Shown piece by piece: positions 37,571-52,755 of a stretch of 64,000 nucleotides of DNA. The notes under the pieces are model-generated. The model was not told the DNA's origin and did no database searches. It saw only the letters and a list, made by a program, of their open reading frames with translations. Numbering within the stretch: position 1 is the first letter of the stretch; each line of letters begins with the position of its first letter. Location: NCBI RefSeq assembly GCF_000188055.2, contig NZ_AEUZ02000001.1, positions 1,378,001 through 1,442,000 on the forward strand, read 5' to 3'. Made by a program: the position numbers and the translations under genes. The DNA is from Streptococcus urinalis 2285-97 (lineage in GTDB: Bacteria > Bacillota > Bacilli > Lactobacillales > Streptococcaceae).

Positions 37571-39118
<1,548 letters not shown>

Positions 39119-39202: not shown

Positions 39203-39220
39203 GTTATAAGAACTTATAAC
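39203..39220. repeat. Short inverted repeat near the left end
   Basis: GTTATAAG-AA-CTTATAAC, a palindrome that could bind a protein. It lies between the arm-like repeats and the gajB terminator. Confidence 0.3.
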
Positions 39221-39263
39221 GAAAAAAACTTCTCTTGGATTATTCCAAGGGAAGTTTTTTTCG
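39221..39263 (-). terminator. Terminator at the left end of the island
   Basis: AAACTTCTCTTGGA and TTCCAAGGGAAGTTT pair with one internal mismatch and have A/T-runs on both sides. It can end the defence operon from the right and lysS from the left. Confidence 0.7.
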
Positions 39264-39338
39264 TTTCTGGATAGCAAAAATGACAGCAGAATTTCTACTG
39301 TCATTTATGTATTTCCGAAAAAGATATATTTATCAGAA

Positions 39339-41195
39339 TTACATCAAGTTATTTACAATTGTTGTATCATTGATTGTAGGAAATTCTATCCATCCAGCTT
39401 TCTGCAGATTACTCAAAAAATCACTGTCTCTTTCAATTAATTGAGCCGGAATACCTATACAAACTAGATGAGTCGGTCTACTGAGTGCCACATATGCAAG
39501 TTTAAGAGCTTTTTCCGTTTCCTTCTCCTCATCATTTTTATCTTCCGGTAGTTCTACATAATTATTACTCAAATATTTTTCAAGCAATTGAAGTATAGAG
39601 TAGCTAGGTGAGGTATCCGCATACCCATTAGTAAATTTTGAATTCAACATCAGTAAAGTTGCTTTGTGAGTTTCCCCTTTTACCGAATGGATAGTCCCCA
39701 ATCTTATGTCTTTACCTGCATTATCTACCGACACATTAGTTTGAATTTGTATGTTTTTAGAAAAATTATTTTGCAACTTATCTTTAATCTCATTACATAA
39801 GGTATTTTTATTTTGCAATAATCCCTCATCATCTATGAGTTCATCAAGAAGTGCACTCAATCCATCGATTATTTTCTCATCATCTTCATTTCTCAGATTT
39901 TTAATAATTTTAAATATCTTTATTCTAAAACCATCTTCTTTCAATCTATCTTCAAAGTTATTTTCAAAATTTCTTGATAATTCTTTTAAGCATATATCCA
40001 AAAATAAGTCTAAATCACTCCTGTAATTTAGATCCTTTACAACAACACGTTGGTATCTTTCACCAAAAGTATTTTCCAAGTCCTTGTGCTGTGCTGAGAC
40101 AATAACTTTAGACTTTGATGAGTTCTTAAAAGTTTCATTTCCTTTTTCTAATCTATCAATCAGTGAACAATATTTATTAATTAAATCATCGCCATTATCA
40201 TAGACAATAAAATATGGAGGGAAGGAATTATTCTTAGAATCTGATTCCAAATCATCATACTTCTTCACACAAACATTTTTCACTATATTTACAATAGACT
40301 CGCCGAATCGCGATGTTTTTGAAATACGCTTCTCCATAGAGTCATCAATTTCCCAAGCTAATTCCGTATCCCCACCCCAAATATTATATATTGCTTGATA
40401 TGGATCACCAAACTTTTGAATGATTACAGAAGTTTTATCAAATAACGATTGAATTAATTCAAATTGAAATTGACTAGTATCTTGCACTTCGTCCAACAAT
40501 AAATAATCAAATCTTTTTGAAATTATATTTCTAAACATCTCGTTATGCTGTTCAATATACCATTTTGACAATTCTAGACAACAATTATTTGTAATAATAC
40601 CTGATTTAAATAAATTCTCCATACTTGTATTAAATGCGTTATTATATTGCTTATTTCGTCCACCCACCTTAGATTCTACTCTCACTGGTTTAGCCTCTTG
40701 ACTAAAATTCCATTTATCTATTTTTCCAGCTGGATTGGGTAAATACTTCAGAACTGAAACATCTAAGAATTGATAATATCCAACAAACTGCTTATTAAAT
40801 CTTTCACGAAATATATCATCATCAAGTACTCGCATTTTTTTATCGCCAAGAATTAAATGAAACGCTTTCTTAGCAAAAAATGTATTGAAAAAATCTTGAA
40901 TAGTTCCAATAAAGTGAGGAGTTTTTATGTCTTCAATCCCGAGTTTTCTTAAACTTGATTTTATTTCATCCACAGCAACATTAGTGTGAGTAAGTACACA
41001 AATTCCTTGTCCTGAATCCTTCAATTGTTCAAGTAATATTTTAACACGTGCAGTTAGTACTGTTGTTTTTCCAGTTCCAGGTCCAGCGACAACGTCCATT
41101 GTATCGTTGTGTAAAATGACATCCTTTTGTTCCTCGGAAAAATGACATCCAGACGGGAGTAAACTTTTCTCAATTGATGCTATTAATTCATTCAT
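39339..41195 (-). CDS. gajB: Gabija-like UvrD/Rep helicase GajB
   Basis: The 618-residue SF1A helicase shows motif I VVAGPGTGKTT (about 35-45), motif Ia VLTHTNVAVDEIK, motif II LLLDEVQDTSQFQF, motif III KFGDPYQAIYNI, motif V TIHSVKGETHKATLLML and motif VI LAYVALSRPTHLV. Next to an OLD nuclease this defines the GajB subunit of Gabija, an antiphage system that cuts phage DNA when nucleotides fall. It is longer than the Bacillus cereus GajB I recall (about 494). The frame reaches 41231, but GAGGGAGGG and the coding context favour ATG at 41195, overlapping the gajA stop by 8 bases. Confidence 0.85.
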   Translation of the reverse strand: MNELIASIEKSLLPSGCHFSEEQKDVILHNDTMDVVAGPGTGKTTVLTARVKILLEQLKDSGQGICVLTHTNVAVDEIKSSLRKLGIEDIKTPHFIGTIQDFFNTFFAKKAFHLILGDKKMRVLDDDIFRERFNKQFVGYYQFLDVSVLKYLPNPAGKIDKWNFSQEAKPVRVESKVGGRNKQYNNAFNTSMENLFKSGIITNNCCLELSKWYIEQHNEMFRNIISKRFDYLLLDEVQDTSQFQFELIQSLFDKTSVIIQKFGDPYQAIYNIWGGDTELAWEIDDSMEKRISKTSRFGESIVNIVKNVCVKKYDDLESDSKNNSFPPYFIVYDNGDDLINKYCSLIDRLEKGNETFKNSSKSKVIVSAQHKDLENTFGERYQRVVVKDLNYRSDLDLFLDICLKELSRNFENNFEDRLKEDGFRIKIFKIIKNLRNEDDEKIIDGLSALLDELIDDEGLLQNKNTLCNEIKDKLQNNFSKNIQIQTNVSVDNAGKDIRLGTIHSVKGETHKATLLMLNSKFTNGYADTSPSYSILQLLEKYLSNNYVELPEDKNDEEKETEKALKLAYVALSRPTHLVCIGIPAQLIERDSDFLSNLQKAGWIEFPTINDTTIVNNLM

Positions 41196-43242
41196 CAGTC
41201 CCTCCCTCTTCTTCATTGATTTGAGCAGCATATTTAATCGCCTTCACTAGATATTGAGTGTAGTCATTGGAAAGCACTTCTGTTTTAAGTTGCTCTTTAT
41301 TCTCACTAGCTAACTTTCCAATTTCAATCGCCAACTTTTGAGCAACAATCGCTTTAGAGACCTTCTTATCGTTTAAAGGTTTAAAGATATCATAAGCTAG
41401 TTCGGAACTGATTGTATCATCACTAGTGGTAAGCTGATTATTTATCTCATCAAACTTATTTTGATTAACAGGACTGTAAGGGTTCTTGTATCTTGTTTCA
41501 TGAATTGATTTCCAGAGTAATTTTACTAACGGACTTCTCGCTAAACTATATTCTAAAGTCCATGCTGGTGCGACAAATGTTTTAGAATTCGCATTATAGT
41601 CCTTGTATTTTTGTATAATATTATTCTTTTTTACTCCTATAAGAATATTAATATAATCTTTAGTCAATTCTTTAGCAACTTTTTTATTGAATTCATTTTC
41701 ATCTAAAGTTTCACTAATCTCGAATTCATCTTTAAGTTTATTTCTTGTAGAGAATATTGTACCGTAGGGACGGTCTTCATCAGTTAAATCAGATTCTAAT
41801 CCCAATTCGCTTAAAATCTGTTGAAATTCATTTTGACTTTCTATTACGTATACTTCGCCAGTCGTACCTTTATCATTGTAATATTCCAGAGGTCTGACAT
41901 CTACATCAGTTACAATAGAAACAGGTAATTCAATTCTATCATCTCCTCTTCTTGAAAATAATTTGATGTAGCGTTCAAATGCTGTATTTCCTATATTAAC
42001 TATAGAAACACCATATTCATGTAACGGATATCCTATTAGCTCAGCAAATGCAGGAAGCAGCAAATTTTCAGCATCACCTTCTACAAATATCAATCCTTTG
42101 GCAAAAAATAAATTGCTTTTGGTCGCATCTAAAAACCTTTCCAAAAACTCATAATCTTCTTTTCCTAGCAAAGTTTCTGATTCTGCCATTGAGAATGCTT
42201 GATTGTTGTATAGTAAAATTAGGTTCTTAGGATTGATAGAAGAGGCTAAGTTGGTGCTGTGAGTAGTTAGAATAAATTGGGTAGAAGAATTATTCTCCAT
42301 ATGCTTAATCAACCGAATTTGGGCTTGTGTGTGTAAATGAGCTTCTATTTCTTCGATTAATGCAATTCTAGGACCGATATAATCACTATCATCATGCATC
42401 AAAAGCAATTCAACTGCAATATATAAAATATTGGAATTGCCTAACCCTAAATTAACACTTTCAGTATCTAAACTTAGTCTCGATAGTATAGAATAAATAT
42501 TAGCCTCTGAAACATTAAATGCAATCTTACTTTTTTCAAAATCATTTTTATCATAAAAAGTTGCTAATTGATCCATAATTAACTGAACCACATTATGTTC
42601 ATCCTTAGAGAAAAATTCTTTTACCTCTCCGTTCGCCTTACCCACAATATCCAAAAGTTCTTGTTTTCCACCTTCGCCAATCTGAGGATGGGCAGAAAGA
42701 ATGTTAGATAATCTAGAATAAGGACCTGGACGTAATTCCCTCTGAGCATCCCTTAATGGTCTCAAATAGATAGCTTTTAAGAGTTGCTTTGCCTCGCTAT
42801 CTATGATTGTCTCGGAATGGTTGTCCCCACCATATATTTTACGATCAAAATACTCTTTTCCATTAGGGTTTTTCTTTTTAACAACTTTTAATGTAATTTT
42901 CAATTGAGGATTATTTCCCTCATCAAATGAAATCCACTCTAAAAATTTAGCAGCTTCTTCATCTGAAAGCCCCTTAAATAATCCAATGATTTTAAACTCC
43001 TCATTGAATATCTTTCCATCCATTGTGTAAAAATCTGTATCTACAATTCTATCGTAGTCATCGCTCAAAGTACCTAATAATAATTTGATTCCATCAATAA
43101 TTGCTGTTTTTCCAGCATCGTTCTCACCAACTATCAAATTCATTCCTCTTTGAAATTTAACAGTCAATCCGGGAGAATCATCAGTTGATTTATATTTTCG
43201 AAAATCCCAATATTCTACTTTTTCTAGAAACACTTCACTCAC
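41188..43242 (-). CDS. gajA: Gabija-like OLD-family ATPase/nuclease GajA
   Basis: The 684-residue protein has an ABC-type ATPase head, with P-loop VGENDAGKT (38-46) and Walker B region ALIEEIEAHLHTQAQIRLIKHM followed by LTTHSTNLASSIN. It also has a C-terminal TOPRIM nuclease (LIFVEGDAENLLLP, then IVTDVDVRP), the class 2 OLD layout of GajA. Reference GajA is shorter (about 578). The GTG start at 43242 overlaps the stop of the restriction-modification gene (GTGA); a GTG nine bases later has better spacing to GGAGG. The coupled gajB partner makes Gabija the best call over a lone OLD nuclease. Confidence 0.87.
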   Translation of the reverse strand: MSEVFLEKVEYWDFRKYKSTDDSPGLTVKFQRGMNLIVGENDAGKTAIIDGIKLLLGTLSDDYDRIVDTDFYTMDGKIFNEEFKIIGLFKGLSDEEAAKFLEWISFDEGNNPQLKITLKVVKKKNPNGKEYFDRKIYGGDNHSETIIDSEAKQLLKAIYLRPLRDAQRELRPGPYSRLSNILSAHPQIGEGGKQELLDIVGKANGEVKEFFSKDEHNVVQLIMDQLATFYDKNDFEKSKIAFNVSEANIYSILSRLSLDTESVNLGLGNSNILYIAVELLLMHDDSDYIGPRIALIEEIEAHLHTQAQIRLIKHMENNSSTQFILTTHSTNLASSINPKNLILLYNNQAFSMAESETLLGKEDYEFLERFLDATKSNLFFAKGLIFVEGDAENLLLPAFAELIGYPLHEYGVSIVNIGNTAFERYIKLFSRRGDDRIELPVSIVTDVDVRPLEYYNDKGTTGEVYVIESQNEFQQILSELGLESDLTDEDRPYGTIFSTRNKLKDEFEISETLDENEFNKKVAKELTKDYINILIGVKKNNIIQKYKDYNANSKTFVAPAWTLEYSLARSPLVKLLWKSIHETRYKNPYSPVNQNKFDEINNQLTTSDDTISSELAYDIFKPLNDKKVSKAIVAQKLAIEIGKLASENKEQLKTEVLSNDYTQYLVKAIKYAAQINEEEGGTDE

Positions 43243-44528
43243 TCCTCCACTTCAAACTTAGGCAGGCTATTAACCAAGTCAACTGTCTGCATTGAAATGT
43301 TGATAATCCGTAGCAAGAGATTAAAGATATACTTTTCATCTGTACTGTAGTCATTTGGGTTATCAGTGATGCCAGATTTTTTATCCGTCTTAACTTGGTA
43401 CTGGTCCATAATCCACTCAATAGCCGAGCGACCATTGACCACATACTCATAAGCTTTCTCAGGAATATTCTTGATAGTGATATCGTTATTATAGACAATC
43501 GCAGAGCGATCCCCTTTTTTGATGAATTTCATCTTCGTAACCTTGTAAGAAGGCTGAGCGGATAACTGAATATCCACATCTTCATAGACAGGCACTTCTT
43601 CATAGTTGAGGTGCAAGTCCATCAAAGCCTTGCCGACTTCAACATACTTTTCTTTATGCTTAGCTATCGGAATCCGAGCCAAATCTTTCTTCAAATCATT
43701 GGCATACTTTTCTTGATAATCACGAGAATTAAGCAGACCATAGACATAGGCAAAGGTGTCATCCAAACTCAGTCCCAACTTGTCCGCAAAAGCCTGATTC
43801 ATATTATCATGCGATTGGAAAAGTGCTGTTTCATCCACTTCATTATCATAGCGCATGAAACTTTGAGCTTTTTCCAGACTATCCATGTTAGGTATTAAAT
43901 TTGTTATCAATGGAGAAAAATCACGAGATACACCTCTACCTGTTGTTAAGATAACAAGATTTCCTTCACCAAATTTCTTATACCATTGACCAGGACGTTC
44001 TACGACATCATTACCGTAATAGAGATTTTTCTTTGTAAATGGACGATATAATGACTTAATAATCTTATCCTTATTAAATTGGATTTTTTTAGATTTCAAA
44101 ATTGAATCTTCCAGTTTTACAGACCACTTTATAAAATTATCATCTCGATTCAATAGCGATTTCCGTTCATCAATTTGTACCGAATTTAATCTCTCTAATT
44201 CAGAATTATAATTAGAGATTAGCTTATGGCTATTTTGCTCTACATTTTGTTTTGAAAAATTATATACCCAACTATCACGATTAGTTGAAACTCCTATGAT
44301 ATTTTGAATAAACACCGAATCCTGCTCTCCAGCCATGACAGCATACTTCTTGATAATTTGGGTCTCGTTGATTGAGCCAGTCATTGTTATCATCAGGCTG
44401 GATGGTCTGCCAGTCAATGGCTGACATATCCCCAAAGTCTTCAATAATACGGAGCTTTTCTTTCTGCGAGAGATAGTCTCCAATGTCATGATAGTGGAGT
44501 TCATGACTGTCTGAACCGTCTTTGACAA
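43239..44528 (-). pseudogene. Type ISP enzyme, segment 3: target-recognition domain
   Basis: Homology resumes at YAVMAGEQDSVFIQNIIG (about 44350) and runs to the stop, covering the DNA target-recognition part (YYGNDVVERPGQW, FAYVYGLLNSRDYQ). The 60 residues before that point are out-of-frame noise. The stop overlaps the gajA GTG by four bases. Confidence 0.65.
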
Positions 44529-45081
44529 GGATAGAAATGGCTACTGGTGTTCGACTACCTGAGCCAAAGATTTTCCCACCTTCTCTACGTGATTGTTCCC
44601 CAAGGGTACGTTGGTCTCCACGCAGATTAAAAATATAAAGATGGTTAAATTCTTCATAAAGTCCAGCTCGAAGTCCGTCAGCTGAGTTGGTATTGAGGTA
44701 GTTTCCGTTCGTCACAAAGCCAATGCCCCCCTGACCCTTGAGACGGTCAGATGCCCAACGGAAAGCTTTTATGTAGCTGTCATATAGTCCTTTTGTCAGT
44801 CCTGCATTTGATTTTGCCACATAGGTATCCGCCAAGCGTTTATCTAGTTTAGGATAGGAGATGTTTTGGTTGTTATCATTTTGGCTACCTTGACCGATAG
44901 AGTACGGTGGATTACCGATAATGGCTGTTATCGGTTTTTCCTGCTGACGTTTGAGGCGTTGGTCATTTGTCCCAAAGAAAGAGTCATCCAGTGTGTCCTC
45001 AGTCTCTGTGGATTCAAAGGTATCTGTCAGGACAATGCCTTCAAAAAGGCTTGTAAGGCTTATCGCCATTGATGTCATCAA
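44281..45081 (-). pseudogene. Type ISP enzyme, segment 2: methylase catalytic part
   Basis: Homology resumes at FEGIVLTDTFEST and includes methylase motif IV NPPYS, the RDQRTLGEQ region and DPNYQE, then leaves the family at a second +1 shift. The ATGs at its head are internal out-of-frame codons of segment 1 and have no ribosome binding site. Confidence 0.65.
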
Positions 45082-47926
45082 AGACTGCCTCGATATTGAT
45101 GGCAGCGATATAGTAGCTCAGGAGGACGATTTCATTAGCATGAAGTTCCTGCGTGTACTTTCTGACTAGGTCTGTATAGGAGATTTCTCCCTTATCCATG
45201 AGGGATTTGAGGTAGTTAAGGGTTCGTGTGATAAAAGTACCTGTCCCTGTGAAGGGGTCTAGGATATGGACATTCTCACTGGCAAGGGTCTTGCCAAAAT
45301 GCCTTCTCAAGACCACGTCAACCGACCGCACGATAAAGTCTACCACTTCTACTGGTGTAAAGACGATACCTAGCCGTTCTGTGGTTGACTTGAAACCAGT
45401 TGCGAAAAACTTGTCGTAAAGCGTGATGATGATTTTCTGTTTGGCTTGGGCGTTGTCGATACCTTCCGCACGCAAACGCACGGAATCATAGAAAGGTTGC
45501 AGCTCCTTCTGCTCCTTTTCAAAGCCGTATTGAGACAGTTCTGCAATGATTTGTTCCATAGCAGAGCTGACAGGGTTATTTTTGACAAACCCATAGTCTC
45601 CGAAAAGGGCATCAAAGATAGGCAGAGTAATCAAGTGCTGTGCCAACATCTCAATAGCTTGCCTGTCATCAATAGACTCGTTGATATTGTGCTGCAAGCT
45701 GTGAAGGAACTTCTCAAAGGCTGACTTGCTGTCAGGGTTCTGCTCAAGGATAATCTCAATCCCTTGAATGTGTCGTCTGGCAATATCTGCCACATCTTTT
45801 GACCAGTCTTCAAGGTAGCGTCTGTCTCCGACTTTCTGAACGATTTTACCGTAGATAGCCCCTTCGACAGCCTCCCATTCCAGTTCAAGCTCTGTTTGAT
45901 AAGGTCGCATAGGTTCTTCGACATCTGTGCCAGTATTTTTGTTGAAATCTGGGTCATCTGGTGCAGTACCTACACCGATGACTTGGATGTTTTTAGGTTT
46001 TTTCTTATTGAGTTCTAGTTTATTGATGGTCGCCTCAAAGCGTTCATCGACGGAACGCAGCGCATTTAGCACCTGCCAGACCACATCATAGGACTTGTTA
46101 TTGTCAAGGATGGTCTCAGCCGTCTCTCCTGCTGGAACAACGATTGGCAAGATGATATAGCCGTACTCTTTCCCTTCAAACTTACGGATAATCCGACCTA
46201 CCGCTTGGACGATGTCCACCTGTGATTTCCGTGGCGAAAGAAAGACGATGGCATCAAGGTTTGGCACGTCAATCCCTTCAGTCAAGAAACGGACATTGGA
46301 TAAGATGCGAGCTGAATTTTCAGGGATGTCATCACTGGCCAGCCAGTCCAGTGCTTCGTTCTTTTCAAGAGCATTCATGCCCCCATCAACGTGACGGACA
46401 TTGACAGAGTAACCATCCTCACTATCTAGGTAGTCATTAACCACACTTTCAAATTGCTCTGATAAGCGTTGGCTGTCTTTGATGGTTCTTGAAAAGGCAA
46501 TGGCTCGTTTCATCGGTTCACCAGACACCTTATCCGCAAAGCTCTCACGCTTAATCATCCCATTCCAGACACCAATGATGCGACCGACATCATCAATATT
46601 GAGACCATTTTCAGGGTCAGACAGGGATTTTTGCATATCCTTTTGAACCACGGTCTCATCCACTGCCAAGACCATGAGCTTGTAGTCTGTCAAAATATCG
46701 TGGCTGATGGCATCGCCAAAGCCGAGACGATAAAAGACCTTACCGTAGAGGCTTTCATCATCCATACTTGAAATGACAATGGAGTTCGCTTGTGACTTCT
46801 TTTTAGCATCGACACCATAAAGTTTTGGGGTGGCTGTTTGGTAGAGACGTTTGACACCTTTGACATTTAAGTCACTGTGTACCATGGTAAAGGCTGAGTC
46901 ATCTGAACCAAGTGCTTTTGCCCCAGTTGTTCGGTGAGCCTCATCAGCGATGATGAAGTCAAAAACTGGAAAGCCGTTTTTCTGAGCTTTTCCCAAAACC
47001 TCGATAGATTGGTAAGTGCCAAAGACAACCAAGAGTTCCTTTTTAGGATAACTCATCAACTCTTCATAGTTTTCAACGACCTTTTTAGCTGACGTTGTGG
47101 CTGGGTAGCCAATGTCACTGGCTTTGATTTGAATGTTGGTTTCCTCTTGATTGACACTACCGCGGCTGGCATTTCTATCACTGGTCACTGCCATAGAGGA
47201 CATGGTCATGTCAGTGTCGTTATTCCAACCACGCAAGGTTTGGGTCAAGAGTTGAATGCTTGGCACAAGATAGAGAACCACATATTGTTCCTTACCTGCC
47301 TCTTTCGCCATCGCCTCTGCGACTTTTAAGCTAGTAAAGGTCTTACCTGTACCAGGTGCCATGATGAGCTGACCACGGTCATGGTCTTTGAAATACTCCA
47401 AAGCCTTGGAAATGACTTCCTTTTGATAATAGCGTGGTTGCTTTTTAGCCTTGACGGTAACTTCTTCTGGACGTTCAAAGGAGAATTGTTCCCAGTCAAT
47501 TCGTGAATTTCTCAAATCTGATAGACCGATACGAACAACGTCACTCCTATCAGCCAAAGCCTGCTCTGCATTTTTCCCCCACTTATCTGTAGAGGCTACA
47601 ATGATGCCTGAATCGTAGTATTCTTTCCCAAGCTCACCAAGGAAAGAATCGATGTTGGCTTTCTGAATGGCATGATTGTAAAACTTAGCTTGGATAGCCA
47701 CTAATTCTCCTGTGTGCTTTTCAGCCACAAGGTCAACACCGATATCCGATTTGGGAATGCGGTAGTCATTTGGCACATCAGCTAACATCCAGACATGCTT
47801 GAACTCATTTTGATAAGTTGGCTCATGTTGTAAATAAGCACGGACAAGGTATTCAAAGTAGGTTCCCCTGTCACGCTGTGTTTCTGCTAATTCGTTGATT
47901 TGATTGACAAGATGTTCAAACGACAT
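45041..47926 (-). CDS. Type ISP enzyme, segment 1: nuclease, translocase, start of methylase
   Basis: This 961-residue open segment starts at ATG 47926 behind GGAGGAG. It carries the Mrr-like nuclease, the complete SF2 motor, the helical coupler and methylase motif I, and ends at TGA just after NGDKPYKPF. If translated alone it would be a nuclease-translocase without methylation or target recognition. The UUU UGA at its end resembles the prfB shift site in letters but lacks an AGGAGG stimulator. Confidence 0.7.
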   Translation of the reverse strand: MSFEHLVNQINELAETQRDRGTYFEYLVRAYLQHEPTYQNEFKHVWMLADVPNDYRIPKSDIGVDLVAEKHTGELVAIQAKFYNHAIQKANIDSFLGELGKEYYDSGIIVASTDKWGKNAEQALADRSDVVRIGLSDLRNSRIDWEQFSFERPEEVTVKAKKQPRYYQKEVISKALEYFKDHDRGQLIMAPGTGKTFTSLKVAEAMAKEAGKEQYVVLYLVPSIQLLTQTLRGWNNDTDMTMSSMAVTSDRNASRGSVNQEETNIQIKASDIGYPATTSAKKVVENYEELMSYPKKELLVVFGTYQSIEVLGKAQKNGFPVFDFIIADEAHRTTGAKALGSDDSAFTMVHSDLNVKGVKRLYQTATPKLYGVDAKKKSQANSIVISSMDDESLYGKVFYRLGFGDAISHDILTDYKLMVLAVDETVVQKDMQKSLSDPENGLNIDDVGRIIGVWNGMIKRESFADKVSGEPMKRAIAFSRTIKDSQRLSEQFESVVNDYLDSEDGYSVNVRHVDGGMNALEKNEALDWLASDDIPENSARILSNVRFLTEGIDVPNLDAIVFLSPRKSQVDIVQAVGRIIRKFEGKEYGYIILPIVVPAGETAETILDNNKSYDVVWQVLNALRSVDERFEATINKLELNKKKPKNIQVIGVGTAPDDPDFNKNTGTDVEEPMRPYQTELELEWEAVEGAIYGKIVQKVGDRRYLEDWSKDVADIARRHIQGIEIILEQNPDSKSAFEKFLHSLQHNINESIDDRQAIEMLAQHLITLPIFDALFGDYGFVKNNPVSSAMEQIIAELSQYGFEKEQKELQPFYDSVRLRAEGIDNAQAKQKIIITLYDKFFATGFKSTTERLGIVFTPVEVVDFIVRSVDVVLRRHFGKTLASENVHILDPFTGTGTFITRTLNYLKSLMDKGEISYTDLVRKYTQELHANEIVLLSYYIAAINIEAVFDDINGDKPYKPF

Positions 47927-48100: not shown

Positions 48101-48352
48101 CTAAGTTATTATTTTTTCAATTTCTATTTGAAAATAGAAATAATGGTCTCGTCCATCTTTGCTATTGTGTTTGTTGAGCTTGAAGTAGTTTTTCTGGCTC
48201 ATTGCCATTTCTCTGAGGATATCATCCGTTAAGAAAGTCAATGGTACATCCATAGCTGAATAGCGGTAGAAATCTTCCTCAAATTTGAGATAGGAGTCTG
48301 AAAAATAGTCAATTTGTAGTTTGTTTTGGTATATTTCTTTTCTACTCAACAT
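48101..48352 (-). CDS. DUF5960-like small protein
   Basis: The 83-residue protein (MLSRKEIYQNKLQIDYFSDS) resembles small proteins that follow yolD-like genes in streptococcal ICE umuC cassettes. It overlaps the YolD-like gene by 11 bases, so translation is coupled. No catalytic motif is visible and no function is known. Confidence 0.6.
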   Translation of the reverse strand: MLSRKEIYQNKLQIDYFSDSYLKFEEDFYRYSAMDVPLTFLTDDILREMAMSQKNYFKLNKHNSKDGRDHYFYFQIEIEKIIT

Positions 48353-48704
48353 CCGTTTCCTCCGTCATACTGATGGATAATATGTCCTCGACTTGAAGCA
48401 GCTGATAGCCGTCAGCTGTTTTTACTGTGATTTCTTTAGGACTTAGTTCTGTCACTTGCCCAAGGCAAGTAGCTTTTCGTTTATCCTCTTTGACGATGAA
48501 AAGACCTTGTAGCTGACTAGCATAGAGCTGACTGATGAGGACAAGTTTTTCTTCCTTGGTCAAGTCGCTTTTCAAGTCAACCTTTTTCTTATCATCAGAC
48601 AATGATGCGGTGTGTTCTGATAAGAAAAAGCCCATCCATTTCATCATGCCCCTATCCTGATGTTCTCTTGCTAACTGAAAGGGGAGATAACTTCTATCAA
48701 TCAT
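48342..48704 (-). CDS. YolD-like protein (umuC cassette)
   Basis: The 120-residue protein starts MIDRSYLPFQLAREHQDRG and has the YolD-like pattern (MKWMGFFLSEHTASL). YolD proteins accompany Y-family polymerases and may modulate them. Here the upstream umuC is reduced to its tail, so this gene survives without its usual partner and probably without its original promoter. Confidence 0.65.
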   Translation of the reverse strand: MIDRSYLPFQLAREHQDRGMMKWMGFFLSEHTASLSDDKKKVDLKSDLTKEEKLVLISQLYASQLQGLFIVKEDKRKATCLGQVTELSPKEITVKTADGYQLLQVEDILSISMTEETDVE

Positions 48705-49482: not shown

Positions 49483-50073
49483 ATGTCTAATAAAGAAACC
49501 GTTCTGAATTATCTCAAACAGAATAACGGTATCATTACATATAAAGACTGTAAAGAGCTTGGGGTTCCAGCTGTCTATCTCTCACGACTTGAAAATGAAG
49601 AGAAAATATTCCGAGTGGACAAGGGCATCTATCTTTCTACCGATGGTGACTATGACGAGTACTACTTCTTCCAATACAGATTTTCAAGAGCTATTTACTC
49701 CTATGTTTCCGCTCTTTATCTTCAGGGGTTCACGGATGAAATCCCTCAATATTTTGAAGTCACCGTACCAAGAGGGTATCGTTTCAATAATCCGCCTCAA
49801 AACCTTGCGGTTCATACCGTCCCAAAGGAAATTGTTGACCTTGGTGTTATCTCTGTAAAGACACCCTGGGGACAGACCGTTAAGACCTACGACTTTGAGC
49901 GTATCATCTGTGACTTTATTCAAAATCGTAAAAAAATTGATAATGAACTTTTCGTCAAAACTCTTAAGGCTTATGTCAACTATCCAAATAAAAACCTGAC
50001 AAACCTTTACCAATACGCTGAAAAAATGAAAATTATCAATCAAATAAAACAAACACTTGAGGTGCTAATGTGA
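49483..50073 (+). CDS. abiEi: AbiEi antitoxin (type IV toxin-antitoxin, abortive infection)
   Basis: The 196-residue protein has an N-terminal winged helix (NGIITYKDCKELGVPAVYLS, RLENEEKIFRVDKGIYLS) and the AbiEi C-terminal domain (ISVKTPWGQTVKTYDFERII). It represses the operon by binding DNA and counters the AbiEii toxin's effect without binding it. GGAGGAG precedes the ATG. Its stop overlaps the GTG start of abiEii (GTGA). Confidence 0.9.
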   Translation: MSNKETVLNYLKQNNGIITYKDCKELGVPAVYLSRLENEEKIFRVDKGIYLSTDGDYDEYYFFQYRFSRAIYSYVSALYLQGFTDEIPQYFEVTVPRGYRFNNPPQNLAVHTVPKEIVDLGVISVKTPWGQTVKTYDFERIICDFIQNRKKIDNELFVKTLKAYVNYPNKNLTNLYQYAEKMKIINQIKQTLEVLM

Positions 50074-50906
50074 ACAAAGCAAAATTAACGGCACTCTGCC
50101 ATAAAGTTTCAAAAGAAACAGGATTAACGTTTAATTCTGTGATGACCTACTACTTCCTGGAAATTATTCTGAAAAAATTGAGCCAAAGCGCTTATGCTCA
50201 AAATTACATTTTCAAAGGAGGTTTTCTGCTCTCAAATGTCGTCGGGGTTGCTTCCCGTAGTACCGTTGACATTGACTTTCTCTTTAGTAAAATGAATCTA
50301 TCAGAAGAGACCGTGCACCAGCAATTGGAGGATATCCTTGGAAAATCTGATGAAGATATTTCTTTCACTATTCAGTCGGTCACAGCAATTAAGGAAAGTG
50401 ATGATTACGGAGGTTATCGTGCAAGTATCCTTTGCCAGCTTGAGAACATCAGACAGGTCATCCACCTAGATATTGCGACTGGGGACATTGTCACTCCGCA
50501 GCCCATCACTTACGACTACAAGCCAATCTTCACATCAGAACAGTTTCCTATCATTGCCTACACGATTGAGACTATCTTAGCAGAGAAACTACAAACTATT
50601 TATTCTCGCAGCTTCTTGAATAGTCGAAGCAAAGACTTCTATGACGTCTATATCTTGTCAAAATTGAAGATATCAGATATTGATTCGCAACAACTTCTCA
50701 CTGCTTGTCAGCGTACCTTCGATTATCGAGGTACTGAATTAGACTTCGATAAATTCATCAATCTGCTAGAAACATTCAAAACAGATTCAACCCAAAACCA
50801 TCAGTGGGAAAACTACTCTAAAAAGTATAGTTACACTAAAGGTATTACATTTAACGATGTTCTGACAGAGATGACTGATTTGCTTGTAACTATCAAAAAT
50901 CTCTAA
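50070..50906 (+). CDS. abiEii: AbiEii nucleotidyltransferase toxin
   Basis: The 278-residue protein has the DUF1814/NTase motifs: FKGGFLLS with RSTVDIDFLF (GG and DxD), AEKLQTIYSR, and the SRSKDFYDVYIL region. AbiEii modifies tRNA or a related target and halts growth on phage infection. It starts at GTG 50070, overlapping abiEi by four bases. Length and motifs are complete, so the system looks functional. Confidence 0.9.
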   Translation: MNKAKLTALCHKVSKETGLTFNSVMTYYFLEIILKKLSQSAYAQNYIFKGGFLLSNVVGVASRSTVDIDFLFSKMNLSEETVHQQLEDILGKSDEDISFTIQSVTAIKESDDYGGYRASILCQLENIRQVIHLDIATGDIVTPQPITYDYKPIFTSEQFPIIAYTIETILAEKLQTIYSRSFLNSRSKDFYDVYILSKLKISDIDSQQLLTACQRTFDYRGTELDFDKFINLLETFKTDSTQNHQWENYSKKYSYTKGITFNDVLTEMTDLLVTIKNL

Positions 50907-51352: not shown

Positions 51353-52603
51353 ATGATAAACAAAAAACGGAAAGACAATAAAAATCGCATCCTCAAAGAC
51401 GGAGAATATCAACGTCCAAATGGTAGTTACGAATACCGCTGGCGTGATAAGCGAAGAAAGATGAATAGTATCTATGCCAAGTCATTAGTTGAGCTACGAG
51501 AAAAAGAAAAGCAAATTATAAAAGATTCTCTCAACGGATTAAACGTTACCAAAAAAGTTTCTGTAGATGACTTATACCAAAAGTGGAAACTCTTGAAACG
51601 AGGTCTCAAGGATAATACCTTCAAAAACTATCAGTACCTATACGAATATTTCGTGTCTGGTCAATTAGGAAATGTCATCATTACAAACCTCAAGAAAAGT
51701 GAGGTTCGCTCCTTTTACAATTACTTAGCCGAAGAACGACACGTCAAGGTAAGTACCATTGATAGCATCCATACCGTACTCCATCAAGTTCTTCAAGTTG
51801 CTGTCGATGATGAGTATATTTTCAACAATCCCTCAGACAATGCTTTGAAGGAGCTAAAGCAGTCTCGTACTTCTGGGAAAAAAGGACACAGAGCTTTGAC
51901 ACTCAAGGAACAGCAGCTCTTTGAAAATTTTTTAGAGAATACGAGCCGTTATAAAGGTTGGTACCCAGTATTTATTACGATGTTATGGACTGGACTTCGA
52001 GTCGGTGAAGTAACAGGCTTACGTTGGGAAGACATTGATTTTGAAAGCAATACTATTAGTGTCAACCATACACTTGTTTATTATGATACAAGAACGAATC
52101 GTGGTGTCACTTTTACAATCAACACTCCAAAGACAAAGGCAGGGGAGCGTACTGTCCCACTACTACCAAGAGTTAAGGAGGCGCTGATTTTAGAAAAGAA
52201 ACGTCAAGAAGAGCTTGAAATCGTCTGCAAGAGTAAGATTGACGGCTATACCAATTTTATCTTTCTCAATCGTTTTGGTAATGTCTTCCATCAAGGAACA
52301 CTCAATAAAGCACTGAAACGAATTATTCGTGATTGCAATTTTGCTGTCCTTGATGGTAAAATACAAAGTGAGGTAGCACTTCCGAATTTCAGCAACCACT
52401 CTCTCCGTCATACCTTCACTACCCGTATGGTAGAAGCTGGAACTAATATGAAGGCGATGCAAGAAATTCTTGGACACTCTGATATTTCAACCACTATGAA
52501 TATCTACGCCGAAGCTACAAAAGAACTCAAAGAAAAAGAGATGGAAAAGTTCGGAGAAAACCTTCAAAATAGCCTATCAAACCTTGAAGAAACTTACCAA
52601 TAA
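51353..52603 (+). CDS. int: Tyrosine integrase (Tn916 family)
   Basis: The 416-residue recombinase has a Tn916-like N-terminal arm-binding domain (KRKDNKNRILKDGEYQRPNG), a SAM-like core-binding domain and the catalytic domain. Catalytic residues are visible: Arg in TGLRVGEVTGL (about 216), HSLRH (His 349, Arg 352), LGHSDISTTM (His about 375) and Tyr in NIYAE (about 384). It lies at the right end beside attR, the usual place. The last codons form the first of four TTACCA repeats. Confidence 0.95.
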   Translation: MINKKRKDNKNRILKDGEYQRPNGSYEYRWRDKRRKMNSIYAKSLVELREKEKQIIKDSLNGLNVTKKVSVDDLYQKWKLLKRGLKDNTFKNYQYLYEYFVSGQLGNVIITNLKKSEVRSFYNYLAEERHVKVSTIDSIHTVLHQVLQVAVDDEYIFNNPSDNALKELKQSRTSGKKGHRALTLKEQQLFENFLENTSRYKGWYPVFITMLWTGLRVGEVTGLRWEDIDFESNTISVNHTLVYYDTRTNRGVTFTINTPKTKAGERTVPLLPRVKEALILEKKRQEELEIVCKSKIDGYTNFIFLNRFGNVFHQGTLNKALKRIIRDCNFAVLDGKIQSEVALPNFSNHSLRHTFTTRMVEAGTNMKAMQEILGHSDISTTMNIYAEATKELKEKEMEKFGENLQNSLSNLEETYQ

Positions 52604-52632: not shown

Positions 52633-52740
52633 ATTTTGTACAAAGTTAGGGAAAAATATAAAACCTAGCTAAGTTTCTAAACCTTGGTATAATGGGCTTT
52701 AGAGACTTGCGTGAAATAACGTAGAACCAGGTTTCTTTTT

Positions 52741-52755
52741 CCTACAATGAAATAA
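52741..52755 (+). repeat. attR core (15-bp direct repeat)
   Basis: CCTACAATGAAATAA, identical to the 3' end of lysS at 39104-39118, followed directly by the native lysS terminator. Confidence 0.85.

Follow-up and report, generated by a model that had tools for sequence, protein, structure and literature searches.

The window analysed here, a stretch of 64,000 nucleotides (nt) from Streptococcus urinalis 2285-97 (contig NZ_AEUZ02000001.1, positions 1,378,001 to 1,442,000), carries on its minus strand a type ISP restriction-modification gene (47926 to 43239) followed by gajA and gajB, the two genes of the Gabija defence system. Comparison of this locus with its relatives makes it likely, in our view, that streptococcal type ISP genes occupy the invariant first position in mobile defence operons of two parts, the second part being an exchangeable module that is slotted in at the type ISP 3′ end. 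The coordinates and strand of these genes had been given correctly in a first-pass annotation of the same DNA, and the identities of the two Gabija proteins are strong. GajA (41188..43233, 681 amino acids (aa) from its likely GTG within a 684-aa open reading frame (ORF) that stays open to 43242) combines an AAA/ABC ATPase of the OLD family with an OLD-type TOPRIM domain (PADLOC PDLC00080, 9e-210; Pfam PF13175 and PF20469). The adjoining GajB (39339..41195, 618 aa when counted from an inner ATG, within a 630-aa ORF that reaches 41231) is a UvrD-like helicase (PDLC00126, 2e-233; PF00580). This gajAB copy would be active against phages.

The three genes are tightly packed. The annotation had described a GTGA overlap between the type ISP stop and the start of gajA, and these letters are indeed present. 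Translation of gajA, however, probably begins at the GTG at 43233, 9 nt later than had been supposed and 5 nt past the type ISP stop, because the PADLOC profile would begin there (residue 5 corresponds to profile position 2) and because, of the 59 nearest relatives (P0126-P0184, 70-91% identity), 57 start with MFL at that residue. The 8-nt overlap of gajA with gajB holds provided that gajB starts at its inner ATG (41195), which is where the PADLOC GajB profile begins (residue 13 of the 630-aa ORF); a GGAGG lies within the end of gajA (41201..41205, minus strand), 5 nt ahead of this ATG. A second GGAGG (43244..43248, minus strand) lies within the last type ISP codons, GTG GAG GAG, 10 nt ahead of the gajA GTG. 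The absence of a visible promoter was borne out, with 32 promoter-like sites compared to 30.5 +/- 6.3 in shuffled sequence, and none on the minus strand from 43245 to 44200, that is, in the 950 nt ahead of gajA. Past gajB a terminator-like hairpin is found at 39249-39234, within an inverted repeat with T runs (39218..39265) that separates gajB from lysS. The idea that GajA and GajB are unusually long, and perhaps members of a divergent clade, had to be dropped, for their lengths match those of their relatives: the 59 nearest GajA proteins span 657-689 aa, three plasmid relatives (40-43% identity) span 696-716 aa, and the best PADLOC models have 622 and 606 positions.

The type ISP gene had been read as a single frame, and this reading does not stand. 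Instead of one uninterrupted polypeptide, the window encodes three ORFs (45041-47926, 44281-45081 and 43239-44528) that result from two single-base frameshifts, as located by alignment with eight relatives; their homology blocks cover residues 1-958, 958-1190 and 1189-1558 of the intact Streptococcus devriesei protein in three different frames. Across the pieces all type ISP domains are present (PF13156, PF04851, PF22240, PF07669 and PF18135). The first piece holds the Mrr nuclease, the SF2 motor, the coupler and the first half of the methyltransferase (PF13156, PF04851, PF22240); the second holds the other half of the methyltransferase with its NPPY motif (PF07669, 1e-6; PDLC03051, 9e-102); and the third holds the target-recognition part (PF18135, 8e-98; PDLC03051, 3e-107), with homology from about residue 62 of the ORF. 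This copy is expected to be inactive in methylation and cleavage.

Two other explanations for the first frameshift were considered and set aside. An assembly slip is contradicted by the existence of the resulting 961-aa stump in four variants, P0006 and three proteins each differing from it by one residue (P0007-P0009), which occur on 6, 2, 6 and 1 contigs, respectively; this is a strong rather than a final argument, as the same assembly may be represented more than once among these contigs, and it says nothing on the second frameshift. Programmed frameshifting is made less likely by the eight aligned relatives, which are in frame at this position, and by near-identical intact forms of 1560-1561 aa (P0010-P0013, 99-100% identity). 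A further protein, P0014 from S. urinalis FB127-CNA-2, is 100% identical over 93% of the query, stops after 929 aa and has another tail; the gene thus seems to break repeatedly within this species.

To place the locus in context, 284 Streptococcus genomes were searched. The N-terminal part of the type ISP protein was found in 10 of them, the window's own included, and remnants in six more came to light when the C-terminal part was used as query, for a total of 16. Nine further loci (numbered here with the prefix L) were examined with about 5-8 kb on each side, and in all nine the alignment to the window breaks off no more than 11 nt from the type ISP stop codon. What follows that stop codon differs from locus to locus. 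SIR2 and HerA genes are found in L015 and L016 (S. suis), L017 (S. devriesei) and L019 (S. mitis), a 2TM-NUDIX gene with a CD-NTase gene (CBASS) in L018 and in L020 and L022 (S. oralis; the L022 genome is 83% complete), and in L023 the gene of a 391-aa membrane protein that matches no Pfam or PADLOC family, while L021 has no module within 290 nt past the stop. PADLOC and Pfam were applied to the modules of L016, L017, L018, L020 and L023, and the other copies were named by similarity. The remnants extend this pattern: SIR2-HerA genes lie directly past an 84-aa type ISP tail in L144, relatives of the membrane protein lie directly past the tails of L154 and L156, and scraps of HerA (L153) and of CD-NTase (L152) lie past a remnant with another ORF between; no module follows the tail in L155. 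In sum, 12 of the 16 streptococcal type ISP 3′ ends have a module directly behind them, two have scraps and two have none, and all modules but the membrane protein belong to known defence families. In fact, Gabija in the window, SIR2-HerA in S. devriesei (L017) and CD-NTase scraps in L152 all occur at one chromosomal site, lysS.

We defined a tight junction as a same-strand ORF of at least 100 aa that starts between -40 and +60 nt from the type ISP stop; shorter ORFs, such as an 81-aa one in L029, were not counted as neighbours. By this measure the junction is tight in 9 of 10 Streptococcus loci (observed range -17 to +6) compared to 10 of 68 others (Fisher 4e-6, relatedness uncorrected). The base composition changes at the same point. 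The drop in G+C content that had been noted in the window is real (44.9% for type ISP outside its last 1134 nt, 32.6% for gajA and 31.4% for gajB), and a smaller drop of 4 to 9 points, whatever follows, is present in 9 of 9 other streptococcal loci. It is thus a weak sign of recent assembly, as which it had been taken, and a recent fusion is not to be read from it; the larger drop of about 12 points in the window arises because the G+C content of its type ISP gene exceeds that of the other type ISP genes.

Decay of the type ISP gene is common at these loci. An unbroken full-length frame is present in six of the 16 genomes with a C-terminal match and the gene is broken in the other ten, and in six of these ten (the window, L018, L023, L144, L154 and L156) the ORFs of the module are intact. 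Therefore, the streptococcal modules probably work alone.

Several side observations concern the genes of the slot. The membrane proteins form a family of 391-413 aa (L023:12330-13505, L154:615-1856 and L156:3625-4857), each directly past a type ISP tail or remnant; five database relatives were found at E<=0.001, and the family is a candidate defence gene. Its structure model is poor (mean predicted local distance difference test score (pLDDT) 55.6, six alignment rows). A 477-aa Schlafen/AlbA_2 protein is encoded slightly downstream of the module at L018:3049-4482, L019:12981-14414 and L153:5845-7278, the domain being demonstrated for the first two copies and assigned by likeness in the third. 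Past HerA, a protein of about 302-313 aa is encoded at L017:3843-4751, L144:6215-7156 and L145:7969-8877; the L017 copy has no family match, and the protein may be a third member of the SIR2-HerA module.

The slot is accompanied by a ribosome-binding site that is embedded in the type ISP coding sequence itself. Of the 16 streptococcal sequences, the 14 that reach the tail were used for a codon test, L152 and L156 being left out for want of alignable last codons. In the sequences with Glu at these positions, the penultimate Glu is encoded by GAG in 13 of 13 and the last Glu in 12 of 13, which makes them the two top-ranking columns in a set of 76 for Glu; the Val ahead of them is encoded by GTG in 13 of 14, rank 1 of 73 Val columns, while overall codon use in these genes is 29% GAG and 14% GTG. 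Such a comparison of columns within the gene partly allows for relatedness, and most of the other columns hold about 10 sequences. The one clear codon exception, L153, has lost its coupled module and has another AAGGAG further down; L156 has a garbled tail and retains AGGAGG, and L019 ends in GAC with GGAGG still present. Coupled expression of the two parts, as the first-pass annotation had proposed, is thus supported by a putative gajA ribosome-binding site in the last type ISP codons that is unusually conserved in Streptococcus.

On these grounds we propose the following arrangement. The type ISP gene would come first, with a second-line module behind it, be it Gabija, SIR2-HerA, 2TM-NUDIX with CD-NTase or the uncharacterised membrane protein, and we infer that one transcript spans both. 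The Shine-Dalgarno (SD) sequence in the last three type ISP codons would let ribosomes start the module, mostly 1-6 nt past the stop, by re-initiation or by independent entry. Modules would be swapped at the stop codon, probably through recombination in which the conserved 3′ end of type ISP provides one of the arms; the whole unit would travel on integrative elements, here at lysS, and the modules would act as independent defences that remain when type ISP decays, as in the window genome. A bolder extension, which we put forward tentatively and which may well be wrong, is that the type ISP 3′ end is a dedicated docking site where selection keeps a ribosome-binding site so that modules plugged in there are expressed at once, the restriction gene surviving perhaps partly as promoter and socket. 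If so, the genes of the slot, for example the 391-413-aa membrane proteins, would represent new defence systems, and the modules might be adapted to conditions under which restriction fails.

Certain observations weigh against this interpretation. A tree of the type ISP proteins (columns 1-1180, ten Streptococcus proteins and three outgroups) needs five module changes where the minimum for five states is four, so that by itself it lends little support to repeated swapping. On this tree the window protein stands beside a clade of L017, L018, L015 and L016 (SH-aLRT support value 92, not starred), and these five rows include three module types. The sample is small and related, with 10-16 loci from one genus and one genome per species. 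In L019, L020, L022 and L154 the frame of the following ORF stays open upstream into the tail; L021 and L155 retain the SD codons with no module behind them; and in L017, where SIR2 starts 11 nt past the stop, a second GGAG between the genes may serve SIR2. A rival explanation is ordinary clustering in defence islands, with the adjacency of type ISP and Gabija due to chance insertion and the tail codons due to drift or to an out-of-frame N-terminal extension of the next protein. Defence genes on both sides of type ISP outside Streptococcus favour such clustering, as do the four tails into which the next ORF extends and the two that hold SD codons without a module. Nevertheless, we regard it as an unlikely explanation for the streptococcal loci, given that nine of ten junctions are tight with homology ending at the stop codon, that the tail codon columns rank first and second, and that the following ORF reaches back by at most 4 nt, not over GTG GAG GAG, in the window, L015-L018 and L023, where the codons are kept all the same.

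To broaden the comparison, we examined the 68 other type ISP loci, 62 from genome contigs and six from plasmids; this set excludes six that duplicate Streptococcus loci, six that lack the C-terminal part, four with less than 1.5 kb downstream, and L103, which is from Streptococcus. Four of the ten tight neighbours are PADLOC defence genes (SIR2 in L035, GajA in L037, Drt4 in L057 and Tmn in L087); those of L040 and L041 have no match, that of L039 is regulator-like, and those of L044, L049 and L077, being shorter than 200 aa, were outside the family scan. Of the 10 tightly followed genes, 4 match the SD consensus over 5 nt or more within their last five codons and the stop, compared to 0 of 58 others (Fisher 3e-4); at 6 nt or more the figures are 3 of 10 and 0 of 58 (Fisher 2e-3), relatedness being uncorrected in both tests. 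The SD-bearing tails are those of L035 (SIR2 and HerA, in an Izemoplasmatales metagenome-assembled genome), L087 (Tmn-like), L044 and, weakly, L040. Two facts temper this result for the proposed coupling: six of the ten tightly followed genes lack a tail SD, the Gabija case L037 included, and the match in L040 is only GTGAT. The Tmn-like NTPase of L087 (L087:13701-16577; PDLC02220, 6e-46) overlaps the type ISP end by 4 nt, and the tail there contains GAGGTGAT.

Outside Streptococcus the wider surroundings of type ISP are those of an ordinary defence island. PADLOC defence matches (E<=1e-10) were obtained for 14 of 34 downstream and 6 of 18 upstream same-strand ORFs that were scanned. The downstream set comprised ORFs of at least 200 aa within 500 nt (34 of 35, L071 being left out), and the upstream set was a non-random choice of 18 from 31; a partial ZorD match (L102) and regulator matches (L026 and L039) were not counted as defence. 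Defence genes are thus about equally common on both sides, and much of the neighbourhood is therefore ordinary defence-island clustering; by these comparisons the tight, SD-coupled junction alone appears special. No known defence gene was found at the stop codon in the six plasmid type ISP loci that were examined. Two neighbours may be recorded here, namely a 420-aa GajA-like protein 105 nt past type ISP in Enterococcus innesii (L069:12030-13292; PDLC00102, 2e-74) and an 81-aa hypothetical gene 3 nt past type ISP on a Limosilactobacillus reuteri plasmid (L029:13735-13980).

The first-pass annotation had offered a different reading, in which type ISP and Gabija form a composite unit: the type ISP motor would cut or unwind phage DNA and pass the ends or nicks to GajAB, each part needing the other. 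A dedicated pair of this kind is not supported by the tight junctions, which join type ISP to Gabija in 1 of 10 Streptococcus loci (the window's own) and in 1 of 68 others. The latter is L037 (Lacticaseibacillus suibinensis), where a GajA (PDLC00090, 1e-218) and a GajB (PDLC00103, 1e-199), both of other subfamilies, follow at +38 nt. Among the 284 Streptococcus genomes the window's own GajA is the only full-length relative at E<=1e-20, and two other genomes have partial matches of 31-32% identity; no relatives were found by a scan of genome contigs with GajA, nor by scans of viral contigs with GajA and type ISP. The statement that the two blocks are almost never adjacent, which the annotation had named as fatal to its idea, is thus largely true among species representatives, although there are hints to the contrary among strains. 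The best 120 of 6511 type ISP matches and the best 120 of 3129 GajA matches, compared by eye, include longest contigs of equal size in three cases (18535 nt, 102344 nt in S. suis and 64431 nt in S. parasuis), equal size not yet being adjacency, and the N-terminus of one GajA protein (P0147, MKWRSK) fits the type ISP tail in the +1 frame. These two observations suggest that the pair recurs among strains, and together with the tight junctions in the window and L037 they are what speaks for a composite.

Genes of an obligate composite would be expected to recur together and to be lost together, and this is not what was found: the window combines a broken type ISP gene with an intact gajAB, and unrelated modules share the same slot. 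Similarly, the sequence examined around three plasmid GajA-GajB pairs (40-43% identity) contains no type ISP gene, its upstream part being only 250 nt for L032; in L031 an N-6 DNA methylase is encoded further downstream. In addition, a streptococcal Gabija is described in passages of PMC12322248 as protective when expressed from a plasmid, although its subfamily may differ from that of the window. For comparison, one S. thermophilus Gabija copy gave only 0.5-1 log protection according to passages of PMC11514479. We therefore regard the composite as very improbable. Since the modules outlive type ISP and occur elsewhere, and since a plasmid-borne Gabija protects, co-expression of self-sufficient parts is the simplest reading.

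Some modules of the slot were indeed encountered in other settings, where the neighbours were named by reading ORFs. In L146, L147 and L148, more distant SIR2-HerA genes overlap the end of a zeta/PezT-like gene by 4 nt; in L145, SIR2-HerA genes lie past an apparent type II restriction-modification locus. A more distant 2TM-NUDIX and CD-NTase pair lies 5 nt past an hsdS-like gene of an apparent type I restriction-modification locus in L150 and L151, which is perhaps the same kind of slot past another restriction gene.

A further possibility is that the module guards the restriction enzyme, as a second tier that fires when type ISP is inhibited or overrun, in the manner of PrrC for EcoprrI. In favour of this, the invariant gene encodes a restriction enzyme, and among its partners are SIR2-HerA and CBASS, families with an abortive mode of action. 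PrrC is likewise located inside a type IC locus, as stated in passages of PMC12707154. A guard would be useless or harmful at the six of ten broken loci where intact modules stand past a dead or deleted type ISP gene, and the modules of the slot differ widely in their sensing chemistry, so we think this explanation quite improbable. The reading that we prefer remains one in which the type ISP gene provides the slot and the modules defend on their own.

The type ISP-gajAB unit is contained within an integrative element of 13.7 kb at lysS. The host gene (37616..39118, plus strand; tRNA-synt_2, 1e-90) ends in an attL-like direct repeat (39096..39118), its last 23 nt, of which 20 are equal to those of the attR-like partner (52733..52755) that lies just past a Tn916-type tyrosine integrase (51353..52603, plus strand; PF00589, 6e-27; PF02920, 3e-17). 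In 200 simple shuffles of 14.5 kb no repeat matched with up to 3 mismatches, and S. devriesei has a similar repeat pair (18 of 23 positions equal) 12.7 kb apart. An integrase and direct repeats at the 3′ end of lysS thus define the element. It also carries, ahead of type ISP, two small minus-strand genes (48101..48704) that encode a DUF5960 protein of 83 aa and a 120-aa ORF without Pfam or PADLOC match, and, on the plus strand, an AbiEi/AbiEii pair (49483..50906; PDLC02225, 6e-70; PF08843, 6e-43). No conjugation or relaxase gene was recognised among the window ORFs scanned, no search aimed at them having been made.

Defence islands are usually seen as loose clusters, whereas here an exact junction is common to several species and the type ISP tail bears, in its codons, what appears to be the imprint of selection for expressing whichever gene comes next. 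If borne out by experiment, this would explain in concrete terms how defence modules come to be expressed once they have been acquired, and would offer a simple route to the discovery of new modules, namely to read what follows a type ISP tail. It would also provide a natural series in which type ISP is paired with Gabija, SIR2-HerA or CBASS for direct tests of synergy.

Each component of the locus has a known counterpart. The first type ISP piece matches LlaBIII (4xqk) over residues 2-961, and also LlaGI (5ffj), by sequence; unlike those enzymes, the window protein is split by two frameshifts. The gajAB genes share with known Gabija an OLD ATPase-TOPRIM protein, a UvrD helicase and overlapping genes, but they belong to a long-GajA subfamily of which only residues 293-432 match solved GajA chains by sequence, and they are placed behind type ISP. 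The lysS gene is a known target of streptococcal integrative and conjugative elements (passages of PMC4701971), and these share with the window element a tyrosine integrase and short direct repeats at the lysS 3′ end; the window element differs in its size of 13.7 kb and in that no conjugation gene was recognised in the general ORF scan. In S. thermophilus, SIR2-HerA (Gao19/Nezha) lies between or downstream of restriction-modification genes, again a second defence pair beside restriction genes in a streptococcal island, but the main text of PMC11514479 does not use the terms 'type ISP' or 'operon', and its passages contain no stop-codon exchange or embedded SD. In the literature searched, mainly outside subscription journals, no description of the slot or junction was found. 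In passages of PMC12707154, PrrC of EcoprrI is likewise an effector gene inside a restriction-modification locus, but PrrC guards its enzyme, whereas the partner in the streptococcal slot changes and outlives the enzyme. Defence genes beside restriction-modification genes are already known, and what appears to be new, as far as these comparisons of sequence and literature indicate, is the exact, SD-bearing junction at the end of type ISP.

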